Source of the DNA: an uncultured Verrucomicrobia subdivision 3 bacterium
GTDB lineage: Bacteria > Verrucomicrobiota > Verrucomicrobiia > Limisphaerales > UBA11358
Assembly: GCA_903944085.1 (NCBI GenBank)
Contig: CAJAQO010000241.1
Coordinates: forward strand, 1-33,473
Direction of reading: 5' to 3'
Length of the DNA: 33,473 nucleotides
The position numbers and the translations under genes are program-made. Positions 2,743 through 27,005 of the stretch are shown one piece after another (the first letter of the stretch is position 1; each line of letters starts with the position of its first letter). Below the pieces are notes generated by a model. It did not search any database. It worked only from the letters and a program-made list of their open reading frames with translations, and was not told the DNA's origin.

Positions 2743-4671
2743 TTATTTTTCTTTTACTTGCGGTGGCCGCATCGGAGTCAGCGCCGCGAGAATCGCCTTT
2801 TGCACGGTAGGATTGGATAGGTTGCCCAAGTGTCCACCCTGCGGAAAAACGGTCAACTTATCCGGCGTGAACGTGGCGTGGAGCCAGGTTAGATCTTCGT
2901 CCGTCAGGAGAATATCGTTTTGATTGACGATGACGCGCGTATCCGGGTTGGCGCGCAGGCCGGTCTCGTAAGTCCGCAAATCGCCGGCTTGCGCCAGCGC
3001 GGCGGCGGTCGGCGAGTTTAGTCCGTGAGCCGAATAGTAGGGAGTGGCAAACTGGTCAACATAATCCTGGTAGGAATAATTCAGGATTTCCTGATACACC
3101 GGATTGCGCCGCCAATTACTGAGCGGATGCTGCAAGACGCCCTGGTTGTTCCGCCGCTGGCTGCTGTAAATGATGTCGCGCAGGATCAACCGAAAATTCA
3201 GGCCGATGAGAAACTTGGATTCGATGGCGTCAAAGGGTAGCGACGTTTGCGGTGTGAGCGTGGACTGGCTCAAGGCGGCCACTTTCAGGAAAGTATTTTC
3301 CAGGTCGTCCGCGCGTTCTGCGGCCGGCCAATCCAGCGGCGCGCGGTAAAACTCATCCAGCTTGTTCATCCCATGCAGCAGGCGGACCGGCGTATTGATG
3401 GCGACATAGCGGTCGAATTTCAGCAGCGGCAGTTGATTAGTCGGCGCGGTGGCGGCGAGGTATAAAGTATTCAACGCACCCATGGAGTAACCCATCAACG
3501 CCTTGTTGCCCAAGCGGCCCGGATAGAGATGGTTCAAGCGCCGGTCAATTTCCGTGAGCGCCACGTGCAAGTCATGGCCATCCACCGGCAGATAGGCCGG
3601 CAGCGCGGCGGTGGAAGCGTGTTCCATGAACTCGGAATTGAACGGGCTGCTGACGACCACGGCGGAGAAGCCGTTTTTATAGACCAGCTCGGCGAGCGCC
3701 AGCGACGGCTGGGCCAGCCGGTGTCCGCCCAAACCGGGAACAATATAAACCACATTGGCCGATCCCGGCTGCAACCAATAAGTGAATTTCAAATCTTTGC
3801 CGGTCGCCGGAATCCGCGCCGACCGGGTCTGGCCGTGATTGGGAAATTCGGGATCTTTGTAAGTGAAGAAAACGGATTGGATGGTTTCCAGCGAGGCCGG
3901 GTCGGTTTCCCCTTTCACCTGAAAATTCGCGACGCGGTTCGCGCGGGCAAACGTCCAGGCATATTGCACTTCGGAATAAGGATCCATCTCGGCCTGGCTG
4001 AAGCGCACATATTCATTCACGGTGTCGGACAGGTTGTTATACATGTCCGCATAGGTGAAATAAGTATAAGGACCGAGATAGGTCAGCGGATCGTCCACCG
4101 CTAAATCATAAGGCGAAATATAGAGCAAGGGATTGGCGGCGGTGTCGGCGGCGAGGCCGATGGTATCGCGGTCATTGCTCGGCCCAAAAATTGGCAGCAT
4201 GATGAAAAACTGCGGCTGCCAGCCCCATTGGCCAAAGGTCTGGCCAAAATCCGCCTCGGATTTGGGGATGTTCCATTTCGTGCCCACGTCAAACAAGCCG
4301 GCGACCCCGGCGGTGGTGTTGACCGCAAACCGATAGGATTCATCGCGCGCGCCGCCCCACTTGCCTTGCAGCAGGTTGTTGATCAAGCGACCGGGGTAAG
4401 TCAGATTCTTGCCGAAGTTGCCAATGCTGGTGCGCACCGGTTTTACGATCACGAACCGGTAAACGCGGCTGGTTGGTTTCACCACATCCGTCATCAGCCC
4501 TTTGTTGAAGCCCCACATCACCCGGTTGAACGGTTCGATGGGATCGGGCACCGATTGGGGGAGAACCACGGTTTCCGCTGCGAGGGGCTGGCTGACACCA
4601 ACAGCCGGCTGCTGTCCACCGGCGATCAGTGCGCCGCAGAACGACAGGGCGACGAGTGTCTTAATTTTCAA
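2743..4671 (-). CDS. MlaA/VacJ-like domain fused to alpha/beta-hydrolase
   Basis: About 642 residues from a TTG start at 4671, which places a Sec signal (KIKTLVALSFCGALIAG) at the N-terminus. An in-frame ATG at 4779 would add 36 residues before that signal and is less likely. Residues ~43-230 match MlaA/VacJ, the outer-membrane component of the lipid-asymmetry pathway, with the DPIEPFNRVMW opening and the NLLQGKWG and ADFGQTFG blocks. The usual lipobox is not evident. Residues ~290-640 form an alpha/beta-hydrolase: PGLGG oxyanion loop, nucleophile Ser396 in GYSMG, probable Asp586 (NQNDIL) and His614 (GGHLG). The MlaA part suggests envelope phospholipid handling, and the fused domain suggests lipase or esterase chemistry on the same substrates. 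That coupling is inference. A palindrome at 4957-4974 lies upstream. Confidence 0.85.
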   Translation of the reverse strand: MKIKTLVALSFCGALIAGGQQPAVGVSQPLAAETVVLPQSVPDPIEPFNRVMWGFNKGLMTDVVKPTSRVYRFVIVKPVRTSIGNFGKNLTYPGRLINNLLQGKWGGARDESYRFAVNTTAGVAGLFDVGTKWNIPKSEADFGQTFGQWGWQPQFFIMLPIFGPSNDRDTIGLAADTAANPLLYISPYDLAVDDPLTYLGPYTYFTYADMYNNLSDTVNEYVRFSQAEMDPYSEVQYAWTFARANRVANFQVKGETDPASLETIQSVFFTYKDPEFPNHGQTRSARIPATGKDLKFTYWLQPGSANVVYIVPGLGGHRLAQPSLALAELVYKNGFSAVVVSSPFNSEFMEHASTAALPAYLPVDGHDLHVALTEIDRRLNHLYPGRLGNKALMGYSMGALNTLYLAATAPTNQLPLLKFDRYVAINTPVRLLHGMNKLDEFYRAPLDWPAAERADDLENTFLKVAALSQSTLTPQTSLPFDAIESKFLIGLNFRLILRDIIYSSQRRNNQGVLQHPLSNWRRNPVYQEILNYSYQDYVDQFATPYYSAHGLNSPTAAALAQAGDLRTYETGLRANPDTRVIVNQNDILLTDEDLTWLHATFTPDKLTVFPQGGHLGNLSNPTVQKAILAALTPMRPPQVKEK

Positions 4672-5048
4672 GCCGCCCGCCTTTTTGCGTTTAACGTGAA
4701 CAACCTTTGCAGTTTGATGGCCGAGGCTGACAGCGCCGGCTGGTCTCGCGAACCCATGGGTTTCAAGGGAACCTCGCAAAGCTTTGCGGCCAAGCCGCCA
4801 TCACGCACTTGGATTTGAATGATGTTGCCGGGGTCTTCCACCCAGCGGATGCGGATTCCGGCGGGATTGGGCGGCGGTTGAGTCTCGGTTGACCGTAACC
4901 TGCGGACGAATCGTGTTCTCATGGAGTGAGCTAAACATAAAATGCCCGGGCTCACCATGGGGTGTTCACCCCATATGTGTTTTCAAGGTGCTGCCTCCGC
5001 AATTAGGCCGAGCCGAATCAGGGGTTCAGATTTTTTCTTTGAAACTGT
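4672..5048. other. Upstream region of the MlaA-hydrolase gene
   Basis: No gene is supported here. The tract holds the 18-bp palindrome at 4957-4974 and presumably the promoter of the minus-strand gene that starts near 4671. A short minus-strand frame (4668-4958) overlaps the likely leader and has no recognisable domain. Confidence 0.4.
4957..4974. promoter_or_regulatory. Perfect 18-bp palindrome ATGGGGTG-TT-CACCCCAT
   Basis: This is a perfect two-fold symmetric site about 180-290 bp upstream of the MlaA-hydrolase start. Related sequences occur at 5450-5464 and 13318-13341, also upstream of minus-strand gene starts. It could be an operator for a dimeric regulator or a dispersed palindromic repeat. 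The symmetry is seen; the function is not. Confidence 0.4.
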
Positions 5049-6417: not shown

Positions 6418-7095
6418 CTAAACAATGGTCAACTGCACGCTGCTCTCAATGATGCCGGCGCTGATGGCGTAGCGGGTGAGGCCGGCGGTGTCGTGGATGT
6501 CGAGCTTCTGCATGAGATGCTCGCGATGTTTCTCGACCGTCTTGATGCCGATGCCGAGTGCCGCCGCCGTTTCCTTGTTCGCCTTGCCTTCGGCGATCAG
6601 TTGCAGGACTTCCATTTCGCGCGAAGTCAACTGCGCCACTTTCGAGTCCAGCTTGCCCGCATGGCCGGACAACAGCGGATTGAGCCGGCTAAAATGTTTG
6701 GTTATCGCGGGGCTGAAAAATGTTTTGCCGGCCTGGACTTCCCGGACGGCCCGGCACACGTCGTGGGCCGAGGTTTGCTTGAGCAGAAAACCCACCGCGC
6801 CAGAGTCGGTCGCATTTTTGACATATGCATCATCGCTGTGCGCGGAGAGCATGAGCACTTTCGTGGCGGGAAGGATTTTAAGCAACTGGCGGGTGGCCTC
6901 CAGGCCATTGAGCTGGGGCATGGCGATATCCATCAACACCACGGCGGGCCGGAGCTTTTTGGCCAGCGCCACCGCCTGCCGTCCATCCTGCGCTTCGCCG
7001 ACCACCTCGATGTCAGCTTCGAGTTCCAGCATTTTACGAAACCCCTCGCGCACGATCATATGGTCTTCGGCCAGGAGCACGGTGATTTTTTTCAT
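6418..7095 (-). CDS. NarL/LuxR-type response regulator
   Basis: 225 residues. The receiver domain occupies residues ~4-120, with acidic pair Glu10/Asp11, phosphoacceptor Asp56 (VVLMDIAMP), Ser84 and Lys106. A LuxR-type helix-turn-helix follows at ~150-213 (LTSREMEVLQLIAEG, NKETAAALG, KTVEKHREHLMQKL). Such regulators take phosphate from HisKA_3 kinases and bind DNA as dimers. Two HisKA_3 kinases lie in the same operon, making them the natural partners. It is the last gene of the kai operon, and its ATG overlaps the stop of the preceding gene (ATGA, 7092-7095), implying translational coupling. It is therefore the likely transcriptional output of the module. Target promoters are not known. Confidence 0.93.
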   Translation of the reverse strand: MKKITVLLAEDHMIVREGFRKMLELEADIEVVGEAQDGRQAVALAKKLRPAVVLMDIAMPQLNGLEATRQLLKILPATKVLMLSAHSDDAYVKNATDSGAVGFLLKQTSAHDVCRAVREVQAGKTFFSPAITKHFSRLNPLLSGHAGKLDSKVAQLTSREMEVLQLIAEGKANKETAAALGIGIKTVEKHREHLMQKLDIHDTAGLTRYAISAGIIESSVQLTIV

Positions 7096-7613
7096 AGATT
7101 TATGGCGGCGAGTTTGGTGGTTGCAGGCGGCGCCGGAACCGACGCCGTTTCTTTTGCGACAAAGTGATAGGCCGGTTCAAACGTCATTTTCCGGTCGCCG
7201 GCCGTGAACCACAGCTTGAGCTTGCCGCGATGGGTGTCCGTCGGCGTGGCCGTCGCGGCAATGGTCCGACACTTGCCGCCGGTGCCGCTGGTGGTGGCGG
7301 TGCCGGTGATGGCGGCGACTTTTCCCTGGCTGACGTCGGCCAAAGACTTGTCGGAAACGATGATGGCCAGCCGACCCTTTTCGTTTTTCAAAAAATAGGG
7401 AAAAATCTTGATCTGGTAGTCACCGGTGAAAACGCCATTCGCGCGCTGGAGCGCACCGATGATCAGCGTGGCTTTGCCCGCCGCCACCGGCATGGAACTG
7501 GGATCAATCAGGAGAATACGATAGGTTGCCGCCGAGCTGGCTGCCACCGGTGCGGCCTGCGCCAGGCCACCCACGGCGGCGAGCAGCGCCAGCAGAAAAA
7601 AAACTTGGTTCAT
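7092..7613 (-). CDS. Secreted protein of unknown function in kai operon
   Basis: 173 residues with a clear Sec signal peptide (MNQVFFLLALLAAVGGLAQA, cleavage near AQA-AP). The mature part is beta-rich, with Gly/Thr-rich stretches (VAAITGTATTSGTGGKC) and a lone Cys. No catalytic motif or named domain is recognised. It is sandwiched between a PAS-HisKA_3 kinase (19 bp upstream) and the LuxR regulator (4-bp overlap downstream). It is thus translated with the signalling genes and may act as a periplasmic or secreted accessory. Its composition is bacterial-typical and there is no sign of truncation. Confidence 0.8.
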   Translation of the reverse strand: MNQVFFLLALLAAVGGLAQAAPVAASSAATYRILLIDPSSMPVAAGKATLIIGALQRANGVFTGDYQIKIFPYFLKNEKGRLAIIVSDKSLADVSQGKVAAITGTATTSGTGGKCRTIAATATPTDTHRGKLKLWFTAGDRKMTFEPAYHFVAKETASVPAPPATTKLAAINL

Positions 7614-7632
7614 AAAATTTCAGAATCCGGTG

Positions 7633-8868
7633 TTAGCGGACGGCCTTTGCGATCCCCCGGATTTTTCCAAACGGAATTTGGACCGTGATGCTCGTGCCTT
7701 GGCCCGGAGCGGATTTGACCTGCACGATGCCGCCCACAAAATTCGCCCGTTCGCGCATGTCGAGCAGGCCCAGCCGGCTTTTCTTTTTCCGGCTGGCGGG
7801 ATGATGTTCCGGGTCGAAACTGATGCCGTCATCATGGATCACGAGTTGCACCAGGCCGGCCGACTTCGTCAGATTCACTTTCACATGCCGGGCACGGGAG
7901 TGCAACGCCACATTTTCCAAGGCTTCTTGAAAAATCCGGTAGAGCGTCAACTCGATGTCTCCGGGCAGCCGCACCGGCAGTGACACGCAGACCAGTTTTA
8001 CGGAAACGCCGGTCCGTTTGGCAAACTCGATGCCGGCGTCGCGCAAGACGGCGACCAGGCCGAGTTGTTCCAAAACCCCGGGCCGCAGATTGCGCGAGAT
8101 GCGCTCCACTTCTTCGGCGGTCTGGCCGAGCAACTCGCGCAGTTTCAACGCCTCGCGTTTCAACCGTTGCTCGCGCGCGGGCAGTTGGTCCGCCAACGTC
8201 TGGCTGCGGACCAGAACGGCGCAGAGCAACTGGGTGATGTGGTCGTGCAATTCCAAGGCGACGCGTCCGCGCTCGGCTTCCTGCGCCTGCACGACGCGGT
8301 GCGTCAACGCCCGCAACTGTTCCTCGTTGCGCCGGCTTTCCGTCAGGTCGGTCACCACCATGCCGATGGTCAACTGGTCGGAACGGTTCCGCGCCAGTTC
8401 CTGGATGGAAATTTGCACGGGCAGTTGCGAGCCATCGCCGCAATGGAGCCGCATCTGGATTTTGGACCCGTCTTTGGCGGACCGCTTCATGAGTGGCCGG
8501 AGCACGGCCCGGTCGGTGGCGGATAAAAACCGGCGAAAGGAGCCGCCCGTCACTTGTTCCAGCGGGCATTTGACCATGCGGGCGAAGCGCTCGTTGGCAT
8601 AAAGGATCGTCTTGTTCACCGTCACCATCAACGCCCCTTCGTTCATGGATTCGATCAGCACGCGATAAGCGTGTTCGGCCCCGTCGAGCGTGAACACCTG
8701 CGAGCCTTCCTTGCCCGCGACCATCACCGAATCCACTTCGCCGCTGCGGATGGCGCGCACCGTTTCTTCCGCCACGGCCAGGCGCGCGGTTAAACCCTGA
8801 AACGCCGAAACGTTGAAACGCTGAAATTTCAGCTTTTCCGTTTTTGAGCTTTTCAGATTTGTTTTCAA
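7633..8868 (-). CDS. PAS-domain HisKA_3 sensor histidine kinase
   Basis: 411 residues, soluble, with no membrane segment. Residues ~24-60 carry the linker often found before PAS in such kinases (ETVRAIRSGEVDSVMV). A PAS domain spans ~62-178. The HisKA_3 dimerisation helix contains the phosphoacceptor His208 (ALELHDHITQ). The HATPase domain follows, with N-box Asn319, DDG at 346-348 and RLGLLDMRER at 365-374. The expected partner is the LuxR regulator two genes downstream. The first ~22 residues are encoded by a CTGAAA-rich low-complexity stretch, so the true start could be slightly later. KaiB ends 5 bp before the start, supporting one transcript. Confidence 0.93.
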   Translation of the reverse strand: MKTNLKSSKTEKLKFQRFNVSAFQGLTARLAVAEETVRAIRSGEVDSVMVAGKEGSQVFTLDGAEHAYRVLIESMNEGALMVTVNKTILYANERFARMVKCPLEQVTGGSFRRFLSATDRAVLRPLMKRSAKDGSKIQMRLHCGDGSQLPVQISIQELARNRSDQLTIGMVVTDLTESRRNEEQLRALTHRVVQAQEAERGRVALELHDHITQLLCAVLVRSQTLADQLPAREQRLKREALKLRELLGQTAEEVERISRNLRPGVLEQLGLVAVLRDAGIEFAKRTGVSVKLVCVSLPVRLPGDIELTLYRIFQEALENVALHSRARHVKVNLTKSAGLVQLVIHDDGISFDPEHHPASRKKKSRLGLLDMRERANFVGGIVQVKSAPGQGTSITVQIPFGKIRGIAKAVR

Positions 8869-8873
8869 AGTTT

Positions 8874-9236
8874 TTACGCGTTGATTTTAACTTTCCTGAC
8901 CAGGTCCAGCTCGACGAACAGGCCGGTGATGTTCGTCAGGTTGCCGATGAACCGGCGCAGCGGCGGTGGAAATTCGATGATGAGCGTCGGCGTGGCGACG
9001 ATCTGGTTGTCGCGCGCCAAAGCGGGCTGCTGATAGATGTCAATCACCTCCAGCTCGCACAGCTCTTGCAATTCGCTGGCGCACAGTTCGCGCACGCGCA
9101 GGATGGCCTGCCGCGAACGGGCCGTGGCTCCCGCCACGAACAGACGCAAGATGTGTTTGTCCGCCGGCTGGCCGGCCGCAGTTTTTTTCTTGGCCGGTGT
9201 CGCGCGGCGGATTTTTTTTGGTTGCTGAACTTTCAT
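8874..9236 (-). CDS. kaiB: KaiB-like protein (second copy)
   Basis: 120 residues. A lysine/alanine-rich N-terminal extension (~1-25) precedes a KaiB thioredoxin-like domain (~28-115): strand LRLFVAGAT, helix RSRQAILRVRELC, strand LEVIDIYQQP, then the conserved IVATPTLI and RRFIGNL blocks. In cyanobacteria KaiB is a fold-switching protein that binds the KaiC CI ring. Outside cyanobacteria, KaiB homologues often accompany KaiC in stress signalling. This copy differs strongly from its neighbour (9242-9571), from which it is separated by 5 bp, so the two probably do different jobs or form a heterocomplex. Rhythmic function is not shown. Confidence 0.92.
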   Translation of the reverse strand: MKVQQPKKIRRATPAKKKTAAGQPADKHILRLFVAGATARSRQAILRVRELCASELQELCELEVIDIYQQPALARDNQIVATPTLIIEFPPPLRRFIGNLTNITGLFVELDLVRKVKINA

Positions 9237-9241
9237 TCCGG

Positions 9242-9571
9242 TTAAACGGCTGGACGCAAATCCAAGCCGACGAGCAGGTGTTCGACATCGGAAAGGTTGC
9301 CGATGATGGTGCGCACCGGCTTCGGCAACTGGCGCACCACGGTGGGAATGGCCAGAATCTGGTCGCCTTTGGCCAGTTGCGGCTGCTTCAGCAAATCAAT
9401 CACCGTGATGCGATAAATGCCTTTGAGATGCGTTTCGCAAAACTGTTTCAGGTTCGCCAAGGCGGTTTGCGATTTGGGCGTGGAGTCCACCACATAAAGG
9501 CGCAGTTGCCAGAGCTTGGCGAGCGGGCGCAGCTTGGCGGCAGCACGGGGTTTTACGGTTTTTGTTTTCAC
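9242..9571 (-). CDS. kaiB: KaiB-like protein (first copy)
   Basis: 109 residues with the KaiB fold at ~20-105: QLRLYVVDST, KSQTALANLKQFCE, YRITVIDLLKQP, ILAIPTVVRQLP and RTIIGNLSD. The cis-Pro-containing AIPT motif matches the IPT/TPT pattern of the family. The ATG overlaps the KaiC stop (9568-9571), so synthesis is coupled to KaiC and a direct complex is likely. It has a shorter basic N-terminus than the second KaiB. The overall match is confident; whether it switches fold like cyanobacterial KaiB cannot be read from sequence. Confidence 0.93.
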   Translation of the reverse strand: MKTKTVKPRAAAKLRPLAKLWQLRLYVVDSTPKSQTALANLKQFCETHLKGIYRITVIDLLKQPQLAKGDQILAIPTVVRQLPKPVRTIIGNLSDVEHLLVGLDLRPAV

Positions 9572-11328
9572 GAATGCACCTTCCCATTTCGGGCGCGGCT
9601 GCGGGGATGAACGACGGTTTTGGCATCCGCCTGCCGCAAAATACCGGAAGCGGTCCGCTCGCTGGTGAGCATGAGCGTGCTGGTGCCGACCTGTTCGGCA
9701 ATGCGCCGCAGTTCCTGCGCCTCGGTTTCGTAATCGGCGCGCAGGCCGCTGATCTGCCGTTCGATGGCTTCGCGCTTGCGCTCCACTTCGCGCTTGAGCT
9801 GGGCGGCTTCCTGCTGGGCGGCCAGCACGGCGGCGTTTTCGAGGGCGCCTTGCGCGGCGCGGGCGGAACCGGTCAGCACGCCGCTCGGCCCGATGTAAGC
9901 GTCCACCAAATCAATTCCCCGGTCCGAAATCAAAAACTCGCGGATCTGGTTGGAGTGCGCCATGCCGCGCGCTTTGAGCACGTAAAGCACGCGATTGCGT
10001 TCGCCGTTGCCTTCGTAGTCTTGCAACAGCAACCACGAATCCATGAGCGAGGACATGGCGGCTTCGCTTTGCTGGAGCGCGTGGCCGCCCTGCGTCAGAC
10101 TGGTGAAGAGCGAGGTGATTTGCCCGGCTTTCAAATGGTCAATCAGCCGCGTGATCATGCCCTTGTTTTCAGAGTTCGTGCCGCAGTCCATCAGGCTCGT
10201 GATGGGATCAATGATGACCACGTGGGGTTTGAATGTAGTGATCTCCTTGAACATCGTGGCCAGATGCATTTCCAAACCGTAGAGCGAGGGCCGCGCCGAA
10301 TGAAACCGCAGCAGGCCGCGCTTGACGAGCGGCTCCAGTCGCAAGCCGATGGATTGCATGTTGCGGATAATTTGATCGGGCGATTCTTCAAATGAGAAAA
10401 ACAGCACGCGCTCGCCGCGCCGCGCGGCGGCCTGGGCAAAGTTGGCGGAAACAATGGTCTTGCCGGTGCCGGGCGTGCCCGTGAGCAAAATGCTGCTGCC
10501 GCGAAAAAATCCTTTGCCGCCGAGCATCGCATCGAGCCGGGGAATGCCGGTGGCAATCCGTTCGCCTGACACCTTGTGATTCAGCGCCAGCGAAGTGATC
10601 GGCAGCACGCTGATGCCTTCGTCGCCGATCAGAAAAGGAAATTCGTTGGTGCCGTGCAGCGCGCCGCGATACTTCACCACGCGCAAATGCCGCGTCGCAA
10701 TCTGGTCGTTGACGCGATGATCGAGCAGGATGACACAGTCGGAAACGTATTCTTCCAGCCCGTGCCGCGTCAGCGATTCGCGTCCGCGCTCGGCGGTGAT
10801 GACGGCGGTGACGCCCTTGTCCTTGAGCCAGCGGAAGAGCCGGCGCAGTTCGCTGCGCAAGATGGCTTCATTCGGCAGGCTCGCAAACAGCACTTCCAAC
10901 GTGTCGAGCACCACGCGCTTGGCGCCGATGGAATCAATCGCGTGGCCGAGCCGGACGAACAAACCTTCCAGATCATACTCACCGCTTTCCTGAACTTCGC
11001 TGCGCTCGATGTGGACGTAATCAATGACGATTTTTTTGCGCCGCACCAAACCCGCGAGATCAAAGCCGAGCGACGCCACGTTGGCCGTCAGTTCTTTTTC
11101 GGTTTCTTCAAACGCCATCAACACGCCCGGCTCGTCAAACTGCACGGCACCGCGCACGAGAAATTCCGCCGCCAGCAAAGTCTTGCCGCAGCCCGCGCCG
11201 CCGCAGACCAGCGTCGGCCGGCCGCGCGGCAACCCGCCGCCGGTGATTTCATCAAGCCCTTGAATGCCCGTGGGGCACTTGGGCAAAAGCGTTTTCGGCG
11301 CGCTGGATTGAAATCCGTTTTTTTTCAT
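9568..11328 (-). CDS. kaiC: KaiC-like double RecA-fold ATPase
   Basis: 586 residues with two KaiC/RecA domains. CI (~15-245) has Walker A GGAGCGKT at 43-50, Glu74/Glu75 and Walker B VVLD at 139-142. CII (~255-480) has Walker A GTPGTGKT at 284-291, Glu314/Glu315 and VVIID at 370-374. The segment AAMSSLMDSWLLLQ aligns without gaps to the cyanobacterial phosphosite segment, placing Ser426-Ser427 where Ser431-Thr432 occur. So autophosphorylation is possible. After CII comes a coiled coil (~500-545, Ala/Glu/Arg-rich) and a basic tail, longer than the cyanobacterial KaiC tail that KaiA grips. The hexameric ring ATPase role is family knowledge. It lies 31 bp after the HisKA_3 kinase gene and is coupled to kaiB. 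Confidence 0.96.
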   Translation of the reverse strand: MKKNGFQSSAPKTLLPKCPTGIQGLDEITGGGLPRGRPTLVCGGAGCGKTLLAAEFLVRGAVQFDEPGVLMAFEETEKELTANVASLGFDLAGLVRRKKIVIDYVHIERSEVQESGEYDLEGLFVRLGHAIDSIGAKRVVLDTLEVLFASLPNEAILRSELRRLFRWLKDKGVTAVITAERGRESLTRHGLEEYVSDCVILLDHRVNDQIATRHLRVVKYRGALHGTNEFPFLIGDEGISVLPITSLALNHKVSGERIATGIPRLDAMLGGKGFFRGSSILLTGTPGTGKTIVSANFAQAAARRGERVLFFSFEESPDQIIRNMQSIGLRLEPLVKRGLLRFHSARPSLYGLEMHLATMFKEITTFKPHVVIIDPITSLMDCGTNSENKGMITRLIDHLKAGQITSLFTSLTQGGHALQQSEAAMSSLMDSWLLLQDYEGNGERNRVLYVLKARGMAHSNQIREFLISDRGIDLVDAYIGPSGVLTGSARAAQGALENAAVLAAQQEAAQLKREVERKREAIERQISGLRADYETEAQELRRIAEQVGTSTLMLTSERTASGILRQADAKTVVHPRSRARNGKVHS

Positions 11329-11359
11329 TCAAATAAATTCGGCTGAACAAGATGTTGCT

Positions 11360-12526
11360 TCACGGACATTCCAGCGGAGTTTCTTTGGTGGATTTTTTCG
11401 GCGCGTCTTTGAGCGCTTTGCCAAAGGGAATTTCCACCTGGATGGTGGTGCCTTGGCCCGGCGCGGCCTCGACACAAAACGTGCCGCCGACCATCTCCAC
11501 GCGTTCCCGCATGCCGAGCAGGCCGAGCCGTTGCCGGCCTTTGGCATTCAGCACGCGTTCCATCTGGAACGATTTGCCGTTGTCTTTGATGTGCATGGCA
11601 ATGCCGTCCGCTTGTTTCAAAATGCTGACTTCCACGCGGCTGGCTTTCGCATGGCGGGAAACATTGTTCAACGATTCCTGCGCGACGCGATACAGCACCG
11701 TGCGCTTGGCGATGTCCAGTTGTTCCACGCCGGCAAAGGCCTTCAATTCGACGTGGAGATGTGTCCGCTTGGAAAACGTTTTCACAAACGAATGCAGCGC
11801 GGGAATCAAGCCCAGATCATCCAGCACCGCCGGGCGCAATTCGCGCGCGAACCGGTGCACGATGTCCACGGATTTTTCCACCAGCCGCTGCGTGCGGGCG
11901 ATGTTGCGGTCGAGGCTCTGGGTGTTGAGCGCGGCCTCTTTTTTCAAGGCCGCCAGCCGGACATTGATGCCAGTCAGCGTCTGGGCGATGACATCGTGCA
12001 ATTCGCGGCTGATCTCCTTGCGCTCTTCTTCCTGCGCCAAAAGGATCTGACGGGACAGTTGCCGCAACTGTTCCTGCATGACTTCCGAATGTTCCAGCAG
12101 CTTGCTATAATGGTGCTCGCTTTTTTTGAGCGCCGCTTCCGCCGTCTTGCGCTGGGTGATTTCCAAACTTAATTCCAGATTGGACGCCGCCAGTTCCACG
12201 GTGCGCTGGCTCAACATCTCGACGATTTGATTCAAATGGACGGCGGCTTCGTGCGCGCTGCGCTGGGTCTTCTCAATCGGCAGAATCGCCTCGGTAAAAA
12301 AAGTTCCGGCCTGCTTGATGAGCGCGGCGCGTTTGCCAGCCGGATGTCCGGGCAAAACCTGTGTGACCAGGATTTGCTCATGGAGCTTGGCCAAATCCAA
12401 CGTCTGCAAGCCGGCGGCCAGCGCCTGCTGGCCCATGCCGCGCGCCGGTTGCAGGCGTGCTCGCAGTCCTTGCTTGAGGTAGGCCAGCAATGCCGCCTGA
12501 TAGCGCCGGGAAAATTTATTTTTCAT
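11360..12526 (-). CDS. HisKA_3 histidine kinase with RsbU_N/KaiA-like N-terminus
   Basis: 388 residues, soluble. Residues ~5-90 form a helical domain with the pattern of the RsbU N-terminal family (RRYQAALLAYLKQG, MGQQALAAGLQTLDLAKLHE). This family shares its fold with the KaiA C-terminal domain. A coiled-coil linker (~92-165) leads to HisKA_3 with His177 (SRELHDVIAQTL). The HATPase domain has N-box NN at 287-288, DNG at 315-317 and RLGLLGMRER at 333-342. The kinase would phosphorylate a NarL-type receiver, such as the one ending this operon. The KaiA-like domain beside KaiC suggests KaiC sensing (inference). Its ATG overlaps the stop of the pseudokinase gene (ATGA, 12523-12526). Confidence 0.92.
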   Translation of the reverse strand: MKNKFSRRYQAALLAYLKQGLRARLQPARGMGQQALAAGLQTLDLAKLHEQILVTQVLPGHPAGKRAALIKQAGTFFTEAILPIEKTQRSAHEAAVHLNQIVEMLSQRTVELAASNLELSLEITQRKTAEAALKKSEHHYSKLLEHSEVMQEQLRQLSRQILLAQEEERKEISRELHDVIAQTLTGINVRLAALKKEAALNTQSLDRNIARTQRLVEKSVDIVHRFARELRPAVLDDLGLIPALHSFVKTFSKRTHLHVELKAFAGVEQLDIAKRTVLYRVAQESLNNVSRHAKASRVEVSILKQADGIAMHIKDNGKSFQMERVLNAKGRQRLGLLGMRERVEMVGGTFCVEAAPGQGTTIQVEIPFGKALKDAPKKSTKETPLECP

Positions 12527-13221
12527 AGGCGGCGGTATTCGCGCGCCACGCGTCGAAACGATTTGGCGGATTTCGTCACCAGCTTTTCCGTGCTGGCGAT
12601 TTCATGCTTAAGACCTGCGTGGTTGATGCGCGCTTCCTGTTTCAGGGAGAGCAGCCGCACATTGATGCCCAGCAGCGTCTGGGCAATTTCATCCTGAAGC
12701 TCGCGGCTGATGGTTTTGCGATCCGCCTCCTGCGCCGCCAGCACACGGTGCGTCAACTGACGCAATCGTCGTTGCAGTTCGAGCGATTCTTCCAGACATT
12801 TTTTATGGTGCAGTCCGCTATTTTCAGCGGCGTTCTGCATGACCTTGCGTTGAACGACGCCGCGTTGCAGTTGGCGTTTGGTGGCGGCGAGTTCCTTGGT
12901 GCGCTGGCCCAAGGTTGCTTTAAGCCGGCGCAACGGCATCTCCGGCTGACGGAGGTGGCGGCACATTTCCTCAACAGGTGTGTTCGCTTCGATAAAAAAA
13001 TCATTCGCCCGCTTGAGGACGCCCTTTTTGCCTTTGGATAAATCCAGGGTCACGAGCGCCCGCTCATGAATCCGCGCCAGCGCCAGCGTCTCCACGCCGA
13101 GGGCGGCCGCCTGCCGTCCCAAGCCCAGTGCCGGCAGCAAATTCGCGCGCGGGCCCGGCTGCAGGTGCGTGCGCAATGCCGTCAAGTAGCGCTGGGACAG
13201 GCGGATTACTTTTTGCTTCAT
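12523..13221 (-). CDS. Catalytically dead kinase-like protein: RsbU_N/KaiA-like plus HisKA_3
   Basis: 232 residues from ATG 13221 (MKQKVIRLSQRYLTAL). The frame is open to 13389, but the upstream part contains an intergenic palindrome and is not conserved-looking. Residues ~8-90 repeat the RsbU_N/KaiA-like helical domain of the next protein. Then come a linker and a HisKA_3 segment in which the expected ELHD reads ELQD: Gln176, codon CAG at 12694-12696. The protein stops right after the dimerisation helices (VAREYRRL), with no ATPase domain. It therefore cannot be a kinase, but it could form heterodimers with the adjacent kinase and modulate it. It is the first gene of the operon and is coupled to that kinase. 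Decay after duplication is the alternative. Confidence 0.85.
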   Translation of the reverse strand: MKQKVIRLSQRYLTALRTHLQPGPRANLLPALGLGRQAAALGVETLALARIHERALVTLDLSKGKKGVLKRANDFFIEANTPVEEMCRHLRQPEMPLRRLKATLGQRTKELAATKRQLQRGVVQRKVMQNAAENSGLHHKKCLEESLELQRRLRQLTHRVLAAQEADRKTISRELQDEIAQTLLGINVRLLSLKQEARINHAGLKHEIASTEKLVTKSAKSFRRVAREYRRL

Positions 13222-13520: not shown

Positions 13521-14123
13521 TTAGTCCATCGCAAACATGACGAGCGGATCGTCTGCCGTGAGCACGGCCAGCAAAGTGCAGCCATGCTCGGAGTAATTCA
13601 CCTCGTGGTGCGAGCCTTTGTCGGCGTGATGAAAATCACCTGCCACGAGCCGCCGGTTCCCGACCACGAGTTCGCCGCTCAAGATGTAAAAATCTTCCGG
13701 GCCGGCGTTCACATGGGCCGGATACTGCACGCCGGCCCCAATTTTACCCAGCAATACCGCGTAACCTCGTTCTTTTTCAAACGAAAGCAATTTGATGAAG
13801 GCGCCAGGAAGCGGCAGCGCTTTCCAGCCGGATTCACTGGCGGCTTCATGAAAACGCAAGCCCGTCAGCGCGGCCGCAACTGGAGCCGATGGAACTTCCT
13901 TTGCTGCCGCGATGCGCTCAAAAATTTTCGTTTTGAGTTGCGGCGGGATGGTCGCTGGCGGGACCGACTTGGCGACCAGCCCGGCTGTGCGCTGCAATTT
14001 GAAAAACAGATCGCAGAGTTCTCCGTCTTCGCGAAGCTGGGATTCAAACGCACTTTGTTCATCCGGCGTCAACGCACCGAGCACATAAAGGCTGGCTTGA
14101 GCTTGAAGTTGTTCGGAAATCAT
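13521..14123 (-). CDS. Cupin-domain anti-sigma factor (ChrR-like)
   Basis: 200 residues. The N-terminal ~70 residues are helical (QASLYVLGALTPDEQSAFES), typical of the sigma-binding domain. The zinc-binding HxxxCxxC of classical ZAS anti-sigma factors is absent. Residues ~100-195 are a ChrR-type cupin with likely metal ligands His137 and Glu143 (YPAHVNAGPEDFYILSGE) and a downstream His-rich GDFHH/GSHHEV segment. In ChrR the cupin senses singlet oxygen or peroxides and releases the sigma factor. A similar role is inferred. The gene overlaps the sigma gene by 4 bp (14120-14123), the standard arrangement for co-regulated pairs. Confidence 0.88.
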   Translation of the reverse strand: MISEQLQAQASLYVLGALTPDEQSAFESQLREDGELCDLFFKLQRTAGLVAKSVPPATIPPQLKTKIFERIAAAKEVPSAPVAAALTGLRFHEAASESGWKALPLPGAFIKLLSFEKERGYAVLLGKIGAGVQYPAHVNAGPEDFYILSGELVVGNRRLVAGDFHHADKGSHHEVNYSEHGCTLLAVLTADDPLVMFAMD

Positions 14124-14794
14124 ACGTAAGCCTCCAAGCCATCGCGCAGCTTCAACATGCCGCGGCGGATGCGCGCCTTTACGGTGCCCAGCGGCTGGCT
14201 GAGCGTGTCGGCAATTTCGTGATGCGAGAGCCCGCCGAAAAAAGCCATTTCAATGGCCTGTTTCTGGTCTTCCGGCAGCGTCCCCAGCGCGACGCGAACC
14301 GCTTCCAGTTCATCGGTGGCCAGCGGAGGTTTCGCAACGAATGCTTCGACGTGCGGTTCGGCCGCCTCGCCGTCATTCGTTTCCACCAGCACCTGGAACC
14401 GGCGTTGACGCGAACGCAGCCGATCAATGCAGCGGTTCCGCACAATGCTCATGGACCAGTTGAAGGCCAGACCCATTTCCGGGTCGAACGACGGCGCTTT
14501 GCTCCAAATCTGCATAAAAACATCTTGAATGACTTCCTCCGCGTCGTGCGCGTTATTGAGCATTCGCGAGGCGAACGCGAACAAGCTCGCCGCCGTCTGG
14601 TCATAAAACTCGGATAACGCCGCACTGTCCCGCGCCGCGATTCGGCGCAGCAAGTCCGCCTGCTGCGTTTCAATTGACAGGTTGTCGAGCACGATTTTTT
14701 GCGTGCCGCCGGCACTGCACAGTGGCGGACTGCCCATTGCCAAAATGCAGAGCTGCTGTCCCGCTTCCAACAACAAACTTAATTTCTCTACCAA
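14120..14794 (-). CDS. ECF-type RNA polymerase sigma factor
   Basis: Up to 224 residues. The first ~40 are poorly conserved, so the start may be internal (for example Met20 at 14737). Region 2 (~58-130) contains SEFYDQTAASLFAFASRML, DAEEVIQDVFMQIW and FNWSMSIVRNRCIDRLR. Region 4 (~165-218) contains LGTLPEDQKQAIEMAFFGG, SHHEIADTL and GTVKARIRRGMLKLR. It recruits RNA polymerase to stress promoters and is held by the adjacent cupin anti-sigma factor. It lies upstream of the kai operon on the same strand, separated from it by 299 bp. Autoregulation is common in this group, but no promoter was identified. Confidence 0.93.
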   Translation of the reverse strand: MVEKLSLLLEAGQQLCILAMGSPPLCSAGGTQKIVLDNLSIETQQADLLRRIAARDSAALSEFYDQTAASLFAFASRMLNNAHDAEEVIQDVFMQIWSKAPSFDPEMGLAFNWSMSIVRNRCIDRLRSRQRRFQVLVETNDGEAAEPHVEAFVAKPPLATDELEAVRVALGTLPEDQKQAIEMAFFGGLSHHEIADTLSQPLGTVKARIRRGMLKLRDGLEAYV

Positions 14795-22376: not shown

Positions 22377-22743
22377 CTTTTCCCGCTTCCAAAACCTCAG
22401 CACGCACCATGCGAACGCCCGTTTGTGCGGGCCTGGTGGCTGGGCGCGTCGCCACTGAATTGTTTGCGACAACGGTTTGATTTTTTCGCGGAATTTCTTC
22501 AGGATCATTTCCCTGCGAACGCGACGGAAGTTGGAATTAGTCAGCGGCGCAGCAAAACCTCGTTTCACTTTACCGCCGACGCCCAGTTGCGCCGCGGCGG
22601 CGCGGTTGCCGTTGGCGTCATCCCGGCCGGCTTCCGTAAAACCAAATCGGCGGTTCGCCCGGGAATTTCGCCTAGACAGAAATTGTCAGTTGACGGACAA
22701 AATCGGTGTGCCACAGTAAATTTACTTGGGTGAGAAATATTTT
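22377..22743. other. Intergenic region after tRNA, no gene seen
   Basis: GC-rich tract of about 370 bp with no convincing coding frame. Its end holds the leader of the receiver-PAS gene, with GGTGAG and GGGAG ribosome-site-like sequences before two alternative ATGs. Confidence 0.4.
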
Positions 22744-22758
22744 ATGGGAGATCAGTCC

Positions 22759-23745
22759 ATGCAATTGTTGATCGTGGAAGATTCCGCCGCCGACGCGACG
22801 TTGTTGCTGGCGGAATTGGAGCGCAAAGGCATTGCCCCGGCGTATCGGCGGGTGGAGTCGAAACCGGATTTTCTGGCCGCCTTGAAGCACTCCGCGTGGG
22901 ATGCCGTCATTTCAGATTATGTGCTGCCGCAGTTCAGCGGCCCGGAGGCGCTGCGTTTGCTGCGGCAGCAAGGATTGGACACGCCGTTCATCATGGTCTC
23001 CGGCATTTATGGCGAGGAGGCGGCGGTGGCGATGATGAAGGCCGGGGCGAATGACTATCTCATGAAAGGAAATCTGGCCCGGCTGTCACCCACCTTGGAA
23101 CGCGAGGTGGAGGCGGCGCGGGATCGTCACCGGCGCAAACGCGCGGAAGGCGCGATGCAGTTTCTCGCCGCCATCATCGAGTCCAGCGTGGACGCCATTT
23201 ACGGCAAGAATCTCGACAGCGTGATCGTGAGTTGGAACCCGGCGGCGGAACGGTTGTTTGGTTACAGCGCGGAAGAAATCATCGGCCGTTCCACCGGGCT
23301 GCTGTTTCCGCAGCACCGGCGCGAGGAGATGCTTGAAATTCTGGCGGGCGTCCGCCGGGGCGACATTGTTGGCGTTCAGGAAACCGAACGGCTGCACAAG
23401 AGTGGACGAATCATCCCGGTGTCCGTGACCGTTTCGCCGATCAAAAACGGGGCGGGCGAAATCATCGGCGCCTCCTCGATTGCCCGCGACATCAGCCGGC
23501 AAAAGCAGGCGGAATTTGAGCGGCAGCAATTGATCCAAAGTCTCATGAACGCGTCGAAACAGGTGCGGACGCTGACCGGATTGCTGCCCATTTGTGCCAC
23601 CTGCAAACGCATCCGCGACGACAAGGGCTATTGGCAGCAGGTGGAAACGTATCTGGCGAAACATTCCGAAATCACTTTTTCCCACAGCATTTGTCCCGCG
23701 TGTGCGGAAGATTATGAGCGCCAGTTTGAATTCAAAGGCCCATAG
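22759..23745 (+). CDS. Receiver-PAS protein with C-terminal CxxC/CPxC motif
   Basis: 328 residues from ATG 22759, which has GGGAG (22746-22750) eight bases upstream. ATG 22744 with its own GGTGAG is a close alternative. The receiver domain (1-120) has the acidic pair Glu7/Asp8 and phosphoacceptor Asp53 (VISDYVLPQ). A PAS domain follows at ~135-255 (IIESSVDAIYGKNLD, RLFGYSAEE, ARDISRQ). The C-terminus has LPICATCKRIRDDKGYW and SICPACAEDY (Cys279, 282, 312, 315), a short conserved module seen at the end of many receiver/PAS proteins and a likely metal site. There is no kinase or DNA-binding domain, so it acts as a signalling intermediate. First gene of the second signalling block. Confidence 0.9.
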   Translation: MQLLIVEDSAADATLLLAELERKGIAPAYRRVESKPDFLAALKHSAWDAVISDYVLPQFSGPEALRLLRQQGLDTPFIMVSGIYGEEAAVAMMKAGANDYLMKGNLARLSPTLEREVEAARDRHRRKRAEGAMQFLAAIIESSVDAIYGKNLDSVIVSWNPAAERLFGYSAEEIIGRSTGLLFPQHRREEMLEILAGVRRGDIVGVQETERLHKSGRIIPVSVTVSPIKNGAGEIIGASSIARDISRQKQAEFERQQLIQSLMNASKQVRTLTGLLPICATCKRIRDDKGYWQQVETYLAKHSEITFSHSICPACAEDYERQFEFKGP

Positions 23746-23928
23746 CTTGGCGGCTTCGGCTCGAATTTTTTTCCAAAAAATGGAAGACCCTTCGGGCGGA
23801 TGCTGGGAACGATTAGGTGAAGCTTTCGGTCTGTTTGGCCAGCGGATTGGGGCGGCGCGAGTCACTCATAGTCTGTTGCTGGCCATATTAATATTGCATG
23901 ATTATTATAAATAAAACGACTTCTGCCT

Positions 23929-24633
23929 GTGCAAAAAGTTGACGTCAAAAAAGCATTTGGAATCTCCGTCCGCGCCTGGAGAAAGCGGAAAGGATTTTCC
24001 CAGGAAGTATTGGCTGAACGTTCGGATTTGCATCGAACCTACATTTCGGATGTGGAGCGCGGGGCGCGCAATCTGTCCTTGGAAAGCATTACCCGGCTGG
24101 CGCGTGCGCTCGAGATTTCGACGGCGGCTCTGTTTCCGGCAGAGTTGCCGAGCGGCGAGGTGGGCCCCATCGCGGAGCACGGTTACGGCCAGGAGTTCGT
24201 GGACATTCTTTTGGTGGAGGATAATCCCGACGATGTGGCCCTGACTTTGCACGCCTTCAAGCAGGCGCGTTTTGCCAACCGCGTGCAGGTGGTGACGGAC
24301 GGGGAGGAAGCGTTGGATTTTGTTTTTTGCCGGGGAAAATATGCGGCTCACCAGCCGGCGGAACGGCCGCAGGTGGTGCTGTTGGATTTGAATCTGCCCA
24401 AAGTAAGCGGGATGGAAGTCTTGCGCCGGATCAAGACGGACGAGCGGACACGGCACATTCCGGTCGTCGTGCTGACCATTTCGCAGATGTTCAAAGACTT
24501 CACGGAATGCGAGCGGCTTGGCGCGGAAACTTACATTATCAAGCCGCTGAACTTTCAGCGGTTGAGCCAGGTCACGCCGCGCTTGAAATTTGATTGGGCG
24601 CTGCTCAAGGCGGCACCATCGGAATTGCAGTAA
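23929..24633 (+). CDS. XRE-type HTH fused to response receiver
   Basis: 234 residues from GTG 23929. Residues ~8-68 are an XRE/Cro helix-turn-helix (RKRKGFSQEVLAERSDLHRT, YISDVERGARNLSLESITRL). Residues ~90-228 are a receiver of the Rcp1 type, with acidic pair Glu97/Asp98, Asp153 (VVLLDLNLPKVSG) and a conserved Lys in YIIKP. The N-terminal DNA-binding placement is unusual, since most regulators have the receiver first. The AT-rich tract before it (TATTAATATTGC, ATTATTATAAAT) probably contains its promoter. The HK gene follows after 61 bp, making it the likely partner. Confidence 0.9.
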   Translation: MQKVDVKKAFGISVRAWRKRKGFSQEVLAERSDLHRTYISDVERGARNLSLESITRLARALEISTAALFPAELPSGEVGPIAEHGYGQEFVDILLVEDNPDDVALTLHAFKQARFANRVQVVTDGEEALDFVFCRGKYAAHQPAERPQVVLLDLNLPKVSGMEVLRRIKTDERTRHIPVVVLTISQMFKDFTECERLGAETYIIKPLNFQRLSQVTPRLKFDWALLKAAPSELQ

Positions 24634-24694
24634 GCCGGGCGGAAGTTTCACCGCCGGTGGCCGGTGCGGGTGGTGCCGTTGAATCATCAGGTGT

Positions 24695-26566
24695 ATGCAG
24701 GCCGAGCAACAATTAAAAGCCTCGCTCAAAGAAATTAACGACCTCAAGGCCGCGCTGGATGAACACGCCATTGTGGCCATCACCGATCCGCAGGGCAAAA
24801 TCAGCTACGTCAACGAAAAATTTTGCATCATCTCCAAATACGCGCGCGAGGAACTGCTCGGCCAAGACCATCGCCTCATTAATTCCGGCCATCACTCCAA
24901 GGAATTCATGCGCGAGCTTTGGACCACGATTGCGCGCGGCCAAGTTTGGAAAGGCGAAATTAAAAACCGGGCCAAGGATGGATCATTGTATTGGGTGGAC
25001 ACCACCATTGTGCCGTTTCTCAATGAGGACGGCAAGCCGCGCCAGTATGTGGCCATCCGCGCCGACATCACCGAACGCAAACGAGCCGAAGAGGCGTTTC
25101 GCGAAAGCGAGGCATTGTTCTCCAAAGCGTTCCGGCTAAGTCCGGATTGCCTGGTCATTTCACGTCTGTCGGACCGCACCGTCATCCGGGCCAACGATGC
25201 GCTCTGCCGGCTATGGAGCAGCCGGCCCGAAGAGGTGGTCGGCAAACCCAGCCGGGAATATGCGAGCTGGTTGAAAGAGGAAGACCAGCAGGAGTTTCTG
25301 CGCAATTTACACGCCCGTGGGGAATGTTTGAACTATGAAACCACCGTCCGCATGGCGGACGGGCGGCTGCTGGATTTCAACATCTCTTCCCGCATGATCT
25401 TCTTCAACGAAGAAGCCTGCGTTTTGAGCGTGATGCGGGACGTCACCGAGCACAAACGTGCCGAGGCTGCCGCCGCGCAACTGGCGGCCATCGTGCAATC
25501 CTCGGACGACGCGATCATTGGCAAGAATCTGGACGGCGTCATCACGAGCTGGAACGCCGGGGCGGAAAAAATCTTTGGCTACGCGGCACCTGAGATCGTT
25601 GGCCAGTCAATCCGGCAACTGATCCCGCCGGATCGCCAGCAGGAAGAGGTGAAGATTCTCGAATGCATCAAGCGCGGCGACAGCATCCGGCATTTCGACA
25701 CCATCCGGTTGCGCAAAGACGGCAGCGCCATTGACATCTCCATCACCACGTCCGCCATCAAAGATCCGGCGGGAAAAATCATCGGGGCTTCGAAAGTGGC
25801 GCGCGACATCACCGAGCGCAAGGCGGCGGAGGCAAAAATTCGCCAACTGAATGTCGAGCTGGAACAGCGCGTCCTGGAACGCACCGCCGAGCTGGAATCC
25901 TTTTCATATTCCGTGTCGCACGATCTGCGGGCGCCGGTGCGCGCCATCGGCGGTTTTGCCCGCATATTGCAGGAGGACCATGCGGCGGCGCTGGCTCCGG
26001 AAGCGCAGCGCCTGCTGGGTCGCATCCACGACAATGCGCAGAAGATGGGCCAGTTGATTGACGGCCTGCTGGCGTTTTCCCGGCTGGGCCGCCAGCCGCT
26101 CAACAAGCAGCCGGTGATGGTTTCGGCGCTGGTGCATCGCGCGCTGGAGGAACTGCAGCCGGAACACGCCGGCCGCCGCATAAAAATTTCCGTCACCGAA
26201 CTGCCCGATTGCCAGGCCGACCCGACCTTGTTGCAGCAGGTTTACACCAACCTGCTTTCCAATGCGTTCAAATATTCGCGCGACCGCAATCCGGCGATCA
26301 TTGAAATCGGTTCGCGTGACGAAAAAGGGAGACGCGTTTATTTCGTGAAGGACAACGGCGCGGGCTTTGAGATGGATTATGCCCACAAACTGTTTGGCGT
26401 GTTCCAGCGCCTGCACCGCGCGGACCAGTTTGAAGGCACCGGCGTGGGGCTGGCGATTGTCCAGCGCATCATTCATCGGCATGGCGGACAGATTTGGGCG
26501 GACGCCGCGCCGGGCAAGGGCGCGATGTTTTCCTTCACCTTGGAACCAAAAAATGTTTATGGCTGA
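24695..26566 (+). CDS. Triple-PAS HisKA sensor histidine kinase
   Basis: 623 residues, soluble. PAS domains at ~15-130, ~138-255 and ~260-378, each ending in a DITERK-like or DVTEHK PAC motif. A coiled-coil linker (NVELEQRVLERTAEL) leads to HisKA with His409 (SYSVSHDLRAPVRAIGG). HATPase follows with Asn523 (LLSNAFKYS), DNGAGF at 553-558 and GTGVGLAIV at 581-589. The kinase core resembles the bacteriophytochrome-type group that pairs with small Rcp1-like receivers, exactly the type of gene that overlaps its 3' end. The input signals of the PAS domains are not predictable. Confidence 0.95.
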   Translation: MQAEQQLKASLKEINDLKAALDEHAIVAITDPQGKISYVNEKFCIISKYAREELLGQDHRLINSGHHSKEFMRELWTTIARGQVWKGEIKNRAKDGSLYWVDTTIVPFLNEDGKPRQYVAIRADITERKRAEEAFRESEALFSKAFRLSPDCLVISRLSDRTVIRANDALCRLWSSRPEEVVGKPSREYASWLKEEDQQEFLRNLHARGECLNYETTVRMADGRLLDFNISSRMIFFNEEACVLSVMRDVTEHKRAEAAAAQLAAIVQSSDDAIIGKNLDGVITSWNAGAEKIFGYAAPEIVGQSIRQLIPPDRQQEEVKILECIKRGDSIRHFDTIRLRKDGSAIDISITTSAIKDPAGKIIGASKVARDITERKAAEAKIRQLNVELEQRVLERTAELESFSYSVSHDLRAPVRAIGGFARILQEDHAAALAPEAQRLLGRIHDNAQKMGQLIDGLLAFSRLGRQPLNKQPVMVSALVHRALEELQPEHAGRRIKISVTELPDCQADPTLLQQVYTNLLSNAFKYSRDRNPAIIEIGSRDEKGRRVYFVKDNGAGFEMDYAHKLFGVFQRLHRADQFEGTGVGLAIVQRIIHRHGGQIWADAAPGKGAMFSFTLEPKNVYG

Positions 26567-27002: not shown

Positions 27003-27005
27003 CGC

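Follow-up and report, generated by a model that had tools for sequence, protein, structure and literature searches.

An RsbU_N-type kinase pair in a KaiA-less kaiBC operon of a Verrucomicrobia subdivision 3 bacterium

When a histidine kinase carrying a domain reminiscent of KaiA is encoded in the same operon as KaiC and KaiB, does that domain read the state of KaiC? The question is raised by a contig of 33,473 nucleotides (GenBank CAJAQO010000241.1, hereafter the window) from the uncultured Verrucomicrobia subdivision 3 bacterium GCA_903944085.1, whose draft genome consists of 335 contigs and totals 5.79 Mb. Eight co-directional genes on the minus strand of the window (6418-13221) encode two proteins with an N-terminal helical domain of the RsbU_N type (pHK1 and HK2), followed by KaiC, two KaiB proteins, a PAS histidine kinase, a small protein, and a response regulator. 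A first-pass annotation of this operon had proposed that the RsbU_N-type domain reads KaiC and thereby replaces both KaiA and SasA in a single chain. Our comparison of the operon with related loci and genomes favors a different explanation, which we regard as reasonably probable: a KaiBC hourglass and a separable pair of RsbU_N kinases belong to a single transcription unit and most likely act on the same response regulator. The gene order, the domains, the type of KaiC, and the modularity of the arrangement across genomes were all established, as described below.

An eight-gene operon with RsbU-like N-terminal domains

The operon comprises the following genes, listed in the order of transcription:

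12523-13221, minus strand: pHK1, 232 amino acids; RsbU_N-type domain, helical linker, and HisKA_3 (the dimerization and histidine phosphotransfer domain, DHp), with no HATPase_c (Pfam)
11360-12526, minus strand: HK2, 388 amino acids; RsbU_N-type domain (about residues 1-98), HisKA_3, and HATPase_c
9568-11328, minus strand: KaiC; two Walker A ATPase domains (Pfam KaiC twice), Ser426-Ser427, and a C-terminal coiled-coil extension
9242-9571, minus strand: KaiB copy a; PF07689, 81.9 bits
8874-9236, minus strand: KaiB copy b; PF07689, 69.5 bits
7633-8868, minus strand: PAS histidine kinase; PAS-HisKA_3-HATPase_c (Pfam), a conserved downstream partner of KaiC
7092-7613, minus strand: protein of 173 amino acids without a Pfam match; hydrophobic N-terminus read by eye
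6418-7095, minus strand: NarL/LuxR-type response regulator; Response_reg and GerE (Pfam)

Successive genes are spaced by -4, 31, -4, 5, 5, 19, and -4 bases, and these gaps, together with the coordinates and the Pfam domains, confirm the coupled eight-gene operon that the first-pass annotation had described. It had also called the system KaiA-less, and indeed the KaiA family (PF07688) has no match in the source assembly at E ≤ 1 (a control search matched 5 of 14 genomes, above the cut-off in one). A KaiB-like N-terminal domain of the SasA type was likewise not detected: none of the three proteins with HisKA_3 is matched by PF07689 at E ≤ 1, whereas both KaiB proteins are. HK2 has both defining parts of a HisKA_3 histidine kinase, namely a DHp domain with its histidine and a HATPase_c domain, and its H177 is invariant across 33 aligned sequences. 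HK2 and the PAS kinase probably both act on the NarL/LuxR-type regulator. Judging from its N-terminus, the 173-residue protein is probably exported; relatives of it also lie between the PAS kinase and the regulator in loci L074 (from 11062) and L091 (from 12791).

Scored singly, the N-terminal domains fall below the Pfam cut-off for RsbU_N (PF08673, 25.5 bits), with 21.7 bits for HK2, 14.5 bits for pHK1, and 23.7 bits for HK2 residues 1-100. Their relatives raise this match well above chance, because, among 51 N-domains that we aligned, 46 are matched by PF08673 at E ≤ 1, the best at 7.4e-12. This alignment comprised the two window proteins and 49 sequences from the fetched loci; two proteins of fewer than 210 amino acids were dropped while it was assembled, and the rows of L021 and L024 are without the first helix owing to a scripted choice of start. 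When the 51-sequence profile was searched against the PDB, the only matches below E 0.01 were four N-domain chains of Bacillus subtilis RsbU (1W53, 2J6Y, 2J70, and 2J6Z; E 1.3e-4 to 3.6e-4), the next match being at 0.097. On this profile evidence, the N-domains of pHK1 and HK2 are homologous to the RsbU N-domain, and the RsbU_N-type domain that had been assigned to both upstream proteins is borne out. The same type of search did not extend to the C-terminal domain of KaiA, to which the first-pass annotation had also linked these proteins: the profile reached no KaiA chain in the PDB at E ≤ 10 (no profile-profile test was made), and PF07688 was absent from the 15 families matched by the 51 N-domains at E ≤ 1. 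A single-sequence PDB search with HK2 returned kinase parts and chance matches, with neither RsbU nor KaiA among them. Within the N-domain alignment, H49 and F76 are invariant.

A predicted structure of the N-domain (AlphaFold2; predicted local distance difference test, pLDDT, 93.6) consists of four helices. Foldseek found nothing for this model at E ≤ 0.001, with RsbR as the best match (0.74) and KaiA at 2.6 and 2.8. We then re-scored 355 of Foldseek's 358 best chains with VIA-align, which warns against values below Z 13 for helical bundles. Seven KaiA chains scored Z 8.2-9.0 (root-mean-square deviation 2.7-3.6 over 89-93 residues), and RsbU scored Z 5.9-6.0. A designed bundle (9.0), a stressosome sensor (8.2), and corrinoid proteins (8.1 and 7.7) were in the same range. 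Since these score alike, the KaiA values agree with a shared fold and are no proof of it. The model does resemble the C-domain of KaiA, but weakly for a helical bundle. In full-length HK2, the model predicts no break between the last of the four domain helices and the first helix of DHp, which together span residues 63-198 as a single helix (pLDDT 90-97 at residues 91-160).

Could the domain nevertheless bind KaiC, or a KaiB-KaiC complex, and report the state of the clock into the kinase? In favor of this, KaiA C-domain chains are among its best structural neighbors, and passages of PMC11372060 describe the RsbT site of RsbU as equivalent to the KaiC site of KaiA. The domain and KaiC are also coupled in operons, as an RsbU_N kinase lies near KaiC, on the same strand and within 6 kb, both in the window and in nine other loci (L009, L016, L018, L021, L026, L055, L061, L091, and L094). 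Against it, the profile reaches RsbU rather than KaiA, and the window KaiC itself appears to be of a kind that works without KaiA. The best solved relative of this KaiC is that of Rhodobacter sphaeroides (8DBA, 634 bits, with the alignment reaching residue 546), whereas KaiC chains of other proteins score at most 368 bits, with no best stretch extending past residue 490. In the alignment, Ser426-Ser427 correspond to the serine pair in the SSLMD motif of 8DBA, which is EE in the 8FWI chain and which we take to be Ser413-Ser414 of PMC10076222. By sequence, the window KaiC is of the R. sphaeroides type (KaiC2), with a Ser-Ser site and a coiled-coil C-terminal extension, and KaiA-independent; according to the relevant passages of PMC10076222, the R. 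sphaeroides protein autophosphorylates independently of KaiA and its C-terminal extension forms a coiled coil. The nearest named relatives of the window KaiC are from metagenome-assembled genomes titled Verrucomicrobia subdivision 3 (at most 95% identical in the best segment).

We also compared the KaiC coiled coils, dropping rows of 400 amino acids or fewer. Their identity to that of the window is 0.77 in loci with an RsbU_N kinase (n=7), 0.75 in loci with a family kinase lacking the domain (n=19), and 0.74 in loci without a family kinase on that strand (n=23, a group picked by eye, in which L087 and L098 carry a related kinase on the opposite strand). Because identity is similar whatever the neighbor, the KaiC tail shows no adaptation to the RsbU_N domain. 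Both the KaiA-independent type of KaiC and its unspecialized tail count against a KaiC-reading domain.

Distribution of the domain, the kinase family, and KaiC

We surveyed 384 genomes of the class, mostly drafts, with cut-offs of E ≤ 1e-5 for the RsbU_N-type domain and KaiB and E ≤ 1e-100 for KaiC, and found the domain in 38, KaiC in 44, and KaiB in 48. Among the 38 domain genomes, 14 have KaiC, 16 have KaiB, and 22 have neither. In 17 of the latter, a cut-off relaxed to E ≤ 1e-10 still gives no KaiC-like match, while the other five (G015, G024, G042, G093, and G152) have a KaiC-like match that is 28-30% identical, G093 also having a 125-residue stretch at 57%. In G231, which is a single contig with 99% completeness, the domain is present and KaiB and KaiC are both absent. 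The closest relative found for HK2 (79% identical; L008) is in the draft genome G341, where pHK1, HK2, and the regulator are consecutive without kaiBC and the genome has neither a KaiC match nor KaiB.

The same separability is seen in the loci. Of 40 fetched for HK2-family kinases, six have a close KaiC nearby (85-88% identity). Among the 34 loci without a close KaiC, 33 have the regulator immediately after the family kinase, and in the window the Kai cassette is placed between HK2 and the regulator. Starting from KaiC instead, we collected 73 distinct loci with a KaiC at least 75% identical, not counting the window (six duplicate KaiC loci and four duplicate kinases were removed from the locus sets). 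A full-length PAS kinase follows KaiC in 54 of the 55 anchored loci with at least 4 kb downstream, and in L082 it is split. Of the 51 loci with at least 4 kb upstream, 17 have an HK2-family kinase no more than 6 kb ahead of KaiC on the same strand, and four of these kinases carry the RsbU_N domain (L055, L061, L091, and L117). The family kinases that occupy this slot beside KaiC without the RsbU_N domain carry PAS in 10 of 10 scanned cases; in L044, which is from the window's own genus, such a PAS kinase stands beside a KaiC that is 88% identical, and a pHK1 remnant lies upstream. Where KaiC is more distant (18 loci), the RsbU_N domain was not found (0 of the 15 loci offering 4 kb or more of upstream sequence), whereas KaiC is followed by a PAS-kinase-like match in 13 of 16. 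A tree of the catalytic regions (69 rows; segments of 190 residues or fewer left out) intermixes KaiC-linked with unlinked kinases and RsbU_N with other kinases. Its bootstrap support is unsettled, 28 of 66 inner branches being open, and it provides only a hint of repeated exchange of input domains.

Several further arrangements were noted among these loci. L038 (G137, a single contig) has an RsbU_N kinase, the regulator, KaiB, and the PAS kinase in succession, with no KaiC match at E ≤ 1e-10. Tandem short regulators matching residues 1-130 of the response regulator lie between the kinases and KaiC in L055 (three, 7741-9000) and L061 (two, 8130-9000). L078, a record titled Akkermansia muciniphila (a title that may be wrong), contains the KaiBC-PAS kinase cassette with a KaiC 87% identical.

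Several observations weigh against the two-block explanation. KaiC is enriched in the domain genomes (14/38 vs 30/346, p 1.2e-5), as are KaiB (16/38 vs 32/346, p 9e-7) and a KaiC with 75% identity or more (7/38 vs 5/346, p 3e-5), and all 12 genomes with a KaiC of at least 75% identity hold an HK2-family kinase, compared with 62 of 384 overall (Fisher p 1.2e-10); none of these tests was corrected for the relatedness of the genomes. The HK2 kinase family and this KaiC are clearly tied, given the 12 of 12, and, as the domain genomes are also Kai-enriched, HK2 itself may be a clock kinase. Single absences are weak evidence, since most genomes of the class are drafts. Furthermore, no stand-alone RsbT-like protein that might bind the domain is evident in the source genome (14 HATPase_c_2 matches at E ≤ 1e-6, shortest frame 218 amino acids), and the full HK2 model has a predicted template-modeling score of 0.43, with pLDDT down to 62 near residue 198.

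The enrichment and the 12-of-12 tie would also suit a KaiC-reading domain. A control set is informative here, made up of the 24 genomes in which a family kinase (at least 250 bits) occurs without the domain. KaiC is present in 9/24 of these vs 14/38 of the domain genomes (p 1.0), and close KaiC in 5/24 vs 7/38 (p 1.0). Because kinases without the domain co-occur with KaiC equally, the RsbU_N domain is not what ties the family to KaiC, and we dropped the enrichment as proof of domain coupling. Taken with the 22 domain genomes lacking Kai and with the PAS kinases that occupy the same slot beside nearly the same KaiC, this leaves the proposal that the domain reads KaiC in place of KaiA and SasA improbable.

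A different way to read the tie is that HK2-family kinases constitute a second clock output, with KaiC or KaiB acting upon the kinase core or linker whatever the input domain. The 12 of 12 result is in line with this, and PAS and RsbU_N versions alike adjoin KaiC; on the other hand, KaiC (E ≤ 1e-100) is missing from 39 of the 62 genomes that hold a family kinase. We consider this reading rather unlikely.

The ATPase-less twin and possible partners of the domain

The first-pass annotation had termed pHK1 a pseudokinase. Indeed, pHK1 is not a HisKA_3 kinase in the sense applied to HK2, since it is without HATPase_c and has RELQD where HK2 has RELHD, placing Gln at the phospho-His. The term does not fit in another respect, because the comparison with its relatives indicates that pHK1 is an ATPase-less twin of the kinase that follows it and not a degenerate full-length kinase. 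Leaving the window aside, the fetched loci contain 38 RsbU_N kinases, of which 16 are immediately preceded by a twin that shares the domain; an intact twin is missing from that place in the other 22. With the window included, 18 twins of 200-269 amino acids were found, so pHK1 belongs to a recurrent class of ATPase-less partners. At the H-box position, eight of them have His, nine (pHK1 among them) have Gln, and one has Lys; twins outside this size range, among them those of L018 and L043, were left out of the count. This recurrent twin, often without the histidine, is the least ordinary part of the operon.

The twin also raises the question of whether the domain serves only for homo- or heterodimerization of HK2 with pHK1, with no outside ligand. 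The 16 of 38 kinases that directly follow a same-domain twin fit this idea, as does the dimerizing role ascribed to the RsbU N-domain in passages of PMC12143880, but the 22 of 38 without an intact twin do not, and the invariance of H49 and F76 would be left unexplained. As a complete account it seems doubtful to us. The homology to RsbU_N would suit a receptor for an RsbT-like switch kinase released by a stressosome, in which case HK2 would be a stress branch meeting the regulator of the clock. Signaling proteins with RsbU_N are encoded downstream of rsbRSTX modules in some Proteobacteria, according to passages of PMC9237108 and PMC12143880. In the source genome, however, there is no short stand-alone HATPase_c_2 frame (related loci were mapped with the window genes only), and a stressosome receptor is accordingly unlikely here. 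When the surroundings of four STAS loci were scanned by regular expression, no RsbT-like protein appeared, but this approach is too crude to count. The STAS gene of contig C121 lies beside a receiver-SpoIIE phosphatase-HATPase_c_2 protein, which is a partner-switch module and not RsbT.

Several other genes of the window were recorded. Directly upstream of the pHK1 gene, beyond a gap of 299 bases, lies the gene of a ChrR-cupin protein (13521-14123), which is overlapped by that of an extracytoplasmic function sigma factor (14120-14794), both on the minus strand. A minus-strand gene at 2743-4779 encodes a protein of 678 amino acids with an MlaA lipoprotein domain and a weak alpha/beta-hydrolase match (23.1 bits, cut-off 25.8). 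On the plus strand, a cluster of receiver, PAS, and hybrid kinase genes at 22726-28931 was read by eye; one of its members (23929-24633) encodes an N-terminal helix-turn-helix joined to a receiver.

A probable KaiBC hourglass and a kinase slot with exchangeable inputs

The explanation that we favor, a KaiBC hourglass and a separable kinase pair in one transcription unit, would divide the operon into two blocks. The first would be a KaiA-independent hourglass, made of the R. sphaeroides-type KaiC, two KaiB proteins, and the PAS kinase as the probable output carrier. The second would be a two-component module of pHK1, HK2, and the regulator, which in most sampled loci stands without KaiBC. In the simplest account, both kinases would converge upon the one NarL-type regulator by phosphotransfer, the PAS kinase being the conserved clock output and HK2 either another input or a second output. 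The RsbU_N domain would serve as an exchangeable, probably dimeric input domain, and a partner that binds it, or a changed pairing with pHK1, may set the activity of the kinase through the linker, in the way suggested for RsbU and for kinases of its type; binding at the domain would act in this way because the fourth helix is predicted to run unbroken into the DHp helix. In a presumed pairing with HK2, pHK1, lacking an ATPase domain, would act as a regulatory subunit or a decoy. The tie between the kinase family and KaiC would run via the shared regulator or the kinase core and not via the RsbU_N domain. It is also conceivable that in the subset of kaiBC operons alone the domain has been recruited to sense KaiC or KaiB-KaiC, with pHK1 as a competing subunit. 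We judge this highly improbable; if true, a clock reader with the KaiA fold, fused to its kinase, would have been re-invented independently.

The arrangement has known counterparts. RsbU N-domains on histidine kinases have already been described (PMC12143880, eLife 2025), and the passages concerned present, as in the window, an RsbU N-domain, a coiled-coil linker, and a histidine kinase, their example being named NreB. They propose that input domains and coiled-coil linkers are exchangeable and that RsbU is activated by a bound partner, and the exchange of RsbU_N and PAS seen here fits such exchangeability. Whereas those kinases adjoin rsbT or stressosome genes in some Proteobacteria, the ones examined here are accompanied by an ATPase-less twin and in a minority stand beside kaiBC. 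The KaiBC hourglass of R. sphaeroides, as presented in passages of PMC10076222, is similarly KaiA-less, with Ser-Ser sites and a long coiled-coil KaiC tail; the window operon contains two KaiB copies, the PAS kinase, and the NarL-type regulator. Synechocystis KaiA3, in the sections of PMC11372060 devoted to it, likewise joins a KaiA/RsbU-type four-helix domain to a two-component part. However, that part is a receiver and not a kinase, KaiA3 interacts with KaiC3, and the window domain is RsbU-like rather than KaiA-like in sequence. RsbU is not mentioned in the available portions of PMC3164672, on kaiC neighborhoods with signaling genes, or of PMC8113500, on the evolution of KaiA. No description of RsbU_N kinases in kaiBC operons was found in the available portions of the open-licence literature. 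The operon is a variation built of known parts.

From these results, we can conclude that a KaiA/RsbU-fold domain adjoining kaiBC is by itself no evidence of a clock reader. The genome comparison allows a conserved cassette of KaiBC and PAS kinase to be told apart from a slot for kinases whose input domains are exchangeable, and it points to a recurrent ATPase-less kinase twin whose histidine has been lost in many of the sampled loci. It also supplies a natural set of operons, in which nearly the same KaiC stands beside either RsbU_N or PAS kinases of one family, for testing how such kinases are coupled to KaiC.

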